Shown here: one piece after another, positions 16,049 to 17,133 of the stretch
Layout of the letters: every line of letters begins with the position of its first letter
How positions within the stretch are numbered: the stretch's first letter is position 1
Assembly (NCBI GenBank): GCA_000806115.1
Contig: JWKQ01000001.1
Coordinates: 151,784 to 215,783 of the forward strand
Source of the DNA: an archaeon GW2011_AR5
GTDB lineage: Archaea > Aenigmatarchaeota > Aenigmatarchaeia > GW2011-AR5
Direction: 5' to 3'
Length of the DNA: 64,000 nucleotides
Program-made: the position numbers and the translations under genes
Notes under the pieces: model-generated
The model's input: the letters and a program-made list of their open reading frames with translations, nothing else
Told to the model about the DNA's origin: nothing
The model's database searches: none

Positions 16049-16108
16049 TCTCACCCATGCTGCTTATAAAAAGCTTGTTTCATAATTTCAGATTGCTCTT
16101 GGTAGACA

Positions 16109-16227
16109 GCTCCAATGAAATAATGGTTTATTATTTCATGGCGATCGTAGTCTAGCCCGGTCAAACCGAGCCGATAGGATAGCGGCCTCTCACGCCGCGG
16201 ACACGGGTTCAAATCCCGTCGGGAGCA
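16109..16227 (+). tRNA. tRNA-Glu (anticodon CTC), interrupted: 32-nt acceptor-stem insertion plus ~13-nt D-loop insertion
   Basis: GCTCC(16109-16113)+CGTAGTCTAGCCCGGTC...AGGATAGCGGCCTCTCACGCCGCGGACACGGGTTCAAATCCCGTCGGGAGCA; the rejoined acceptor GCTCCCG pairs perfectly with CGGGAGC, whereas the contiguous GCGATCG does not. Confidence 0.75.
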
Positions 16228-16344
16228 CTTGGAGAAAGGATTTGAGCCCTGCGGGTTCATCTTCGGCTGAGCGAAGCTCACCGAGAGCTCGACCACGGAA
16301 AGCAAAAGCTTTCCGGAGTCGCAGCAATCCCGTCGGGAGCACTT
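16212..16344 (+). repeat. 19-bp direct repeat of the tRNA-Glu 3' end (AATCCCGTCGGGAGCACTT)
   Basis: Copies at 16212-16230 and 16326-16344. Confidence 0.85.
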
Positions 16345-16371: not shown

Positions 16372-17016
16372 ATGAACCAGCGGGAAGTATGGGAAGCCAT
16401 CGCAAGGGACTGGGCTGATTACAGGAAAGTCCCGCCGGAAGAGGCTGCTGAATTCATTGCAAACAAATCCGGGCTGCTGCTGGATTTGGGCTGCGGCTCC
16501 GGCAGGAACTTCATCCAGACTGACGCCGCTGTGATAGGCGCCGACTTCTCATACAACATGCTGCGCTTTGCAAGGAAAAATGCAAAGGAAAGAGGACTGG
16601 ATGTGCATCTTGCGGTTTCTGATGCCATTGCGCTTCCCTTCAAGGATGATTCGTTCGACGCTATTCTTGCGTTCAACCTCCTGCCGTCTGTAAAATTCAA
16701 CATGCACAAGAAAGTCCTCGAGGAAATCAAGCGCGTTTCAAAAAACGGGTCAGCCATATTCATCTCGGCATGGAACAAAGACCAGCCAAGGTTTGCCGGC
16801 AAAAAGCGCGAGTCCTTCATACCGTGGAAAACCGGGGGAAAAGAATATCAAAGATACTACTACCTCTACTCGAAGGACGAATTTCAATCGCTGCTGAAGA
16901 AGCATTTCAAGAACGTGAAAGTTTTCTACGGCAGGGAGAAGGCATTTAAAAAGTACTCAAAGAATATTATTGCCGTTGCGAGGGTAGCCAAGTCTGGTCA
17001 AAGGCGCAAGGCTTAG
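16372..17016 (+). CDS. Class I SAM-dependent methyltransferase (Trm9/AlkBH8-like pattern)
   Basis: LLDLGCGSGRNF...IGADFSYNMLRFAR...DAIALPFKDDSFDAILAFNLL. Confidence 0.85.
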   Translation: MNQREVWEAIARDWADYRKVPPEEAAEFIANKSGLLLDLGCGSGRNFIQTDAAVIGADFSYNMLRFARKNAKERGLDVHLAVSDAIALPFKDDSFDAILAFNLLPSVKFNMHKKVLEEIKRVSKNGSAIFISAWNKDQPRFAGKKRESFIPWKTGGKEYQRYYYLYSKDEFQSLLKKHFKNVKVFYGREKAFKKYSKNIIAVARVAKSGQRRKA

Positions 17017-17133
17017 GAATTGTTAAGTGCGAAGCTCAGAAGCCAGACAAGTGAAAGACGCCAAAGCGTCAGTTCGCAAGTTAAGATACCTTGTCGGTTA
17101 GTCCGTTCGGCGGTTCGAATCCGCCCTCTCGCA
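16978..17133 (+). tRNA. tRNA-Leu (anticodon TAG) with ~70-nt intron at position 37/38
   Basis: GCGAGGG...CAAGGCTTAGG[intron]ACCTTGTCGGTTAGTCCGTTCGGCGGTTCGAATCCGCCCTCTCGCA; acceptor and anticodon stems pair. Confidence 0.9.

Follow-up and report, generated by a model that had tools for sequence, protein, structure and literature searches.

A tRNA-Glu(CTC) gene very probably interrupted by two noncanonical introns, one of them within the acceptor stem, in an archaeon of the Aenigmatarchaeota

In a 64,000-nucleotide stretch of archaeal DNA, referred to here as the window (G000:C1:151784-215783), lies a tRNA-Glu(CTC) gene whose two ends do not fit each other, which raises the question of whether the gene is defective or interrupted by introns that are removed from its transcript. 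The source genome, G000, comprises 858 kb, is 87.6% complete and contains an archaeal 16S rRNA match; its modest size hints at a member of the DPANN. Read contiguously (16141-16227), the gene matches the Rfam tRNA model with 41.9 bits with mismatched acceptor pairs, which bears out a preliminary description of the locus, according to which the contiguous 5' end cannot pair with the 3' strand CGGGAGC. It had been proposed there that GCTCC further upstream, joined to CG, restores a 7-bp acceptor stem, and indeed CGGGAGC (16220-16226) pairs perfectly with GCTCC (16109-16113) and CG (16146-16147). The intervening 32 nt, which contain a hairpin as had been claimed, lie between tRNA positions 5 and 6 (5/6). 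The preliminary description had further suggested an insert of about 13 nt in the D-loop; the insert is present, but its length is 12 nt when the uninterrupted D-loops of the genome's own tRNA-Glu(TTC) and of tRNA-Glu(CTC) from the genus mate G002 are used to set its bounds (AACCGAGCCGAT). In tRNA-Glu(TTC), the corresponding stretch is GTCTAGCCCGGTCAAGGAT, and excision of AACCGAGCCGAT makes the window gene identical to it there. Removal of both inserts from positions 16109-16227 of the plus strand leaves a tRNA of 75 nt (Table 1), and since all exons lie in order inside 119 nt, the gene is neither split nor permuted. Given the position of the TATA-like box and the spacing of archaeal promoters, transcription is expected to start around 15 nt before the tRNA.

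Table 1. Features of the tRNA-Glu(CTC) locus, in window coordinates
Feature	Position	Strand	Basis
TATA-like box TTATAAAAA, possible promoter	16064..16072	+	read from sequence; inference
GCTCTTG in the leader, second candidate partner of the 3' acceptor strand	16095..16101	+	sequence, fold, geometry
Exon 1, GCTCC, tRNA positions 1-5	16109..16113	+	pairs with 16222-16226; joined to CG in G002 and G003
Putative acceptor-stem intron, 32 nt, 5/6, with inner hairpin and 3'-terminal GGCGAT	16114..16145	+	comparison, motif geometry
Exon 2, CGTAGTCTAGCCCGGTCA	16146..16163	+	same in G003
Putative D-loop intron, 12 nt, AACCGAGCCGAT	16164..16175	+	same in G003, none in G002; 4/4 central pairs
Exon 3 up to discriminator base A73	16176..16227	+	sequence, Rfam, comparison
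Anticodon CTC	16189-16191	+	within exon 3
3' unit: inverted T-arm, T-arm 5' half, two hairpins, GCAGC, copy of tRNA positions 58-73	16228..16344	+	sequence

A DNA search of 31 relatives for the tRNA-Glu(CTC) gene revealed counterparts within the genus. In G003 (L086), the tRNA gene is preceded by the terminal part of the same neighbouring gene and reads ...ctGCTCCCGTAGTCTAG; GCTCC is directly joined to CG, the 12-nt D-loop insert is identical, and an additional intron is found in the anticodon loop. The G002 gene (L097) carries neither the acceptor nor the D-loop insert and likewise has an anticodon-loop intron. The genus mate G001 (L112) reads GCTCC-AGTGCATAATGCACGGCGAA-CGTAGTCTAG and thus contains an acceptor insert of 20 nt at the identical site, whose hairpin differs from that of the window, while the bulge-helix-bulge (BHB) architecture is the same. 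Taken together, removal of the inserts results in an intact tRNA, and uninterrupted counterparts exist for the acceptor stem in G003 and G002 and for the D-loop in G002, as expected for BHB introns. Of the 75 exon positions, two differ between the window gene and G003; they make up the T-stem pair 49:65 (A-U versus U-A), so that the change is compensated and the exons show no decay of the kind seen in pseudogenes. Across the 31 genomes of the order, the acceptor-insert pattern was found in G000, G001 and one match in G030, which is presumably due to chance. A tRNA-Glu-shaped pattern run against 85,488 species genomes, which covers tRNA-Glu with this D-arm and whose scan possibly left the source genome's own records outside, yielded a single true case, the record of G001; the remaining matches were intact tRNAs with a chance GCTCC upstream or were no tRNAs. 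Judging from a methyltransferase that is 84-88% identical in two pieces (pairwise identity), G003 is apparently nearest to G000, and the intron site common to G000 and G001 therefore implies either a loss in G003 or two gains.

The junctions were scored with a motif model in which the cuts fall two nucleotides into 3-nt bulges. A check for BHB motifs, as proposed in the preliminary description, gave a full result for the D-loop and a partial one for the acceptor stem. The D-loop intron shows 4/4 central pairs, as do those of tRNA-Gln from the same genome and of tRNA-Glu from G009, and a loop takes the place of the inner helix in the window gene, resulting in a bulge-helix-loop form. The acceptor intron has 3/4 central pairs (AGCU/GGCG), an inner helix of 11 bp and an outer helix of only 2 bp, which corresponds to a relaxed rather than a strict motif; its counterpart in G001 is strict, with 4/4 central pairs (CGCU/GGCG) and an inner hairpin of 5 bp. 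At random sites of the window, the loose geometry of the window gene (at least 3 central and at least 5 inner pairs) occurs with a frequency of 0.0009, and that of G001 (4 central and at least 5 inner pairs) with a frequency of 0.0001; the scored junctions were set by comparison and not by the motif, which had first been worked out by eye on the same sequences. In the predicted fold of the unspliced precursor, the motif is not clean, and base pairs between the leader and the 3' acceptor strand can form.

The locus thus very probably holds a functional tRNA-Glu(CTC) gene that is interrupted by two noncanonical introns. The reading of the 32 nt as an acceptor-stem intron, already put forward in the preliminary description, is supported by presence and absence within the genus, by the equivalent insert of G001 and by the geometry of the splice motif, and at the sequence level the D-loop insert is to be regarded as an intron too. 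By analogy with established archaeal pathways, from which we infer expression, cleavage, ligation and their order, the transcript would consist of the 5' leader, GCTCC, the 32-nt intron, exon 2, the 12-nt intron and exon 3. The acceptor intron would form its long hairpin between the 3-nt bulge CC^A and GGC(G), the latter pairing with the acceptor's own GCU, with AU^C as the bulge on the other side. Cleavage by the tRNA-splicing endonuclease would then take place two nucleotides into each bulge, and the D-loop intron would be cut likewise, with a plain loop in lieu of the inner hairpin. Subsequent ligation of the exons by RtcB would yield a standard D-arm and complete the acceptor stem of 7 bp. 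RNase P, synthetases and tRNase Z read this stem, whose helix is disrupted by an intron at such a site; splicing therefore probably precedes the other processing steps, and trimming of the ends by RNase P and tRNase Z would follow.

Candidate genes for both activities are encoded in the source genome. It contains one PF01974 splicing endonuclease, L026 (G000:C2:183233-183511); in the 31 genomes searched, one PF01974 match was found in 25, two in 2 and none in 4. Compared to the enzyme of Methanocaldococcus jannaschii (1a79), the G000 endonuclease contains an insertion that is also present in the catalytic subunit of Nanoarchaeum equitans (3iey_A), and the extra loops are of equal length (KKGPKSAKEH and KKGKRSEREH, respectively). 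Lineage-specific loops near the endonuclease active site have been linked to a broad substrate range (PMC12397907). In contrast to the N. equitans endonuclease, one gene was found here, and the position of the catalytic Lys156 of M. jannaschii is occupied by Ala, followed by Arg or Lys, in 25 aligned alpha-type endonucleases (L026 and its relatives from L129-L154, one relative's sequence being left out). Tyr and His are retained in the G000 enzyme. The missing lysine counts, together with the relaxed acceptor motif and the untidy precursor fold, against the reading as a spliced gene. The RtcB ligase gene (L157/L158, G000:C1:388035-390800) contains a match that is split by around 1.4 kb inside a single open frame of 971 amino acids, which suggests that the interruption is probably an intein.

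Three other readings of the locus were weighed against an intron-containing gene. It could be argued that the upstream GCTCT (16095-16099) serves as exon 1 and is followed by an intron of 46 nt, in which case GCTCC would be intronic and the mature tRNA almost the same. The leader motif GCTCTTG, which reads GCTCCTG in G001, lies 14-18 nt upstream, could base-pair with the 3' strand of the acceptor and offers 4/4 central pairs; however, the inner hairpin would be set off from the bulge, only 1 and 3 inner pairs would form versus 11 and 5 with the downstream GCTCC, and GCTCTTG thus fits the splice-motif geometry less well. Since the exact downstream GCTCC also sits at the acceptor in G003 and G002, this choice of exon appears improbable. 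That the 32 nt are retained, so that a hairpin projects from the acceptor stem of the mature tRNA, is barely conceivable: in the predicted fold of 16109-16227, the insert does form a hairpin of its own next to 5 bp of acceptor stem that can pair, but the genus mates G002 and G003 have plain acceptors, recognition by synthetase and RNase P would, from general knowledge, be hard, and the splice-motif geometry would be left unexplained.

The gene might also be a pseudogene, killed by the insertions, with tRNA-Glu(TTC) reading both glutamate codons. A second tRNA-Glu(CTC), which the preliminary description had proposed looking for, was not found in the 87.6%-complete genome, where only tRNA-Glu(TTC) was present. 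As tRNA-Glu(TTC) might read GAG, the tRNA-Glu(CTC) gene need not be essential; across nine reading frames of the neighbourhood, however, 77 of the 179 glutamate codons are GAG. Loss of function is further at odds with exons that are otherwise intact, with inserts at splice-motif sites, with the similar insert kept in G001 and with the identical D-loop insert of G003, and it is considered unlikely. Empty sites in relatives, the equivalent insert of G001 and the compensated exon changes argue, as far as sequence goes, against both chance and a pseudogene and for a functional gene with two introns.

Directly behind the tRNA, the window contains a further structured unit, for which no match was found in Rfam. 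Its last part repeats tRNA positions 58-73, with 16326-16344 being an exact repeat of 16212-16230, and the unit is absent from the orthologous tRNA-Glu(CTC) locus of G003. The junction pattern GATTYGAACCN{0,6}GGTTCR, which was derived from copies already known in the order and misses the copies of G000 itself, had 26 matches in 16 of the 31 genomes of the order; the 129 genomes from elsewhere in the class gave no match, and the reversed control had 2 matches in the 160 genomes. Most matches are located directly behind a tRNA on the same strand, and complete units end in a copy of the 3' part of that same tRNA; a few matches have no recognisable upstream T-arm, and several are truncated. Besides the window copy, units were found at L006, L008, L022, L192, L198 and L204-L226, with tandem copies in G011 and G020. 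Fifteen units, chosen by eye as complete from 23 that were folded, show 96.3% paired cells and two-sided changes in 16 of 26 pairs with respect to a structure drawn from the same 15 sequences, to which the closing stem was added by hand. Their covariation score is 0.485, compared to 0.190 in shuffles, which ignore relatedness, and at most 0.130 in slid alignments, a control that favours the structure. The resulting covariance model matches the window unit (16238-16330) with 67 bits, this copy being among its 15 source units, and has further, weaker matches in loci taken mostly around tRNAs. Two explanations for the unit were considered and set aside. For a casposon target duplication, the casposase of Aciduliprofundum boonei provides the comparison: the sequence it recognises, TCAAATC, precedes its 14-15 bp duplication by 8 bp (PMC6614799), but the duplication starts inside the T-loop here and terminal inverted repeats were not seen by eye; for a T-loop intron, no splice motif was found by hand. 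It is somewhat more likely than not that the units form an undescribed, tRNA-anchored family, so far seen in this order, whose members are four-branched, have covarying stems, lie behind tRNAs and end in a copy of positions 58-73 of the tRNA that they follow. Such a unit might act as a mini mobile element targeting the T-loop or else provide an alternative 3' end during tRNA maturation. In the other archaeal contigs L114 (JAGMCR010000008.1) and L124 (WALL01000004.1), copies of the tRNAs' own 3' ends were observed 64-130 nt further on, with different sequence in between.

Noncanonical introns of archaeal tRNAs are known from many positions and range in length from 11 to 129 nt (PMC4090602). Like the noncanonical BHB introns reviewed so far (PMC4090602, PMC3218864), those described here are short, 32 and 12 nt being within the known range, lie outside position 37/38 and show a BHB or relaxed motif, and the D-loop position 20/21 is already listed. 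They differ in that one is located at acceptor position 5/6 with a relaxed central helix of 3 bp, and in that the host order lies outside the coverage of these reviews. The preliminary description had called an acceptor-stem intron unusual, which holds true, yet there is a precedent: in Thermoproteales, introns occur at position 3/4 (Sugahara 2008, as cited in PMC4090602). To the extent that this citation describes them, they likewise lie inside the acceptor stem, on its 5' strand, whereas the boundary set by comparison is 5/6 here, in another lineage with a single alpha-type endonuclease gene. No report of a 5/6 acceptor-stem intron was found in the open-access subset of the literature.

Inserts are also frequent in other tRNAs of the order. 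A tRNA-Ile of G009 (L159, G009:C6:296500-297200) contains 28 nt at position 8/9, where the best of six trial placements of the junction gives a strict motif, and a tRNA-Arg of G002 (L161, G002:C29:8950-9650) contains 25 nt near 7/8. In tRNA-Trp of G003 (L170, G003:C15:7500-8200), 39 nt interrupt the acceptor stem, with boundaries that are ambiguous over five positions, and no standard splice motif was found at any of the five junctions. The tRNA-Glu(CTC) gene is therefore one example from a set of tRNAs that is rich in introns. The window itself holds another interrupted tRNA (16978-17133), with 73 extra nt in its anticodon loop. In G006, the 3' part of a tRNA-Thr(TGT) (L174, G006:C2:490550-491300) has no recognisable 5' part upstream and is either a split gene or a pseudogene.

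Such interrupted genes can escape gene finders, as had been anticipated for this locus, and ARAGORN, which gave no call here, is a case in point. The introns of G000 and G001, which occupy the same site with different hairpins, together with the empty sites of G002 and G003, constitute a natural experiment in the gain, loss and turnover of tRNA introns, set in an archaeal order in which most of the searched genomes have a single alpha-type endonuclease gene.
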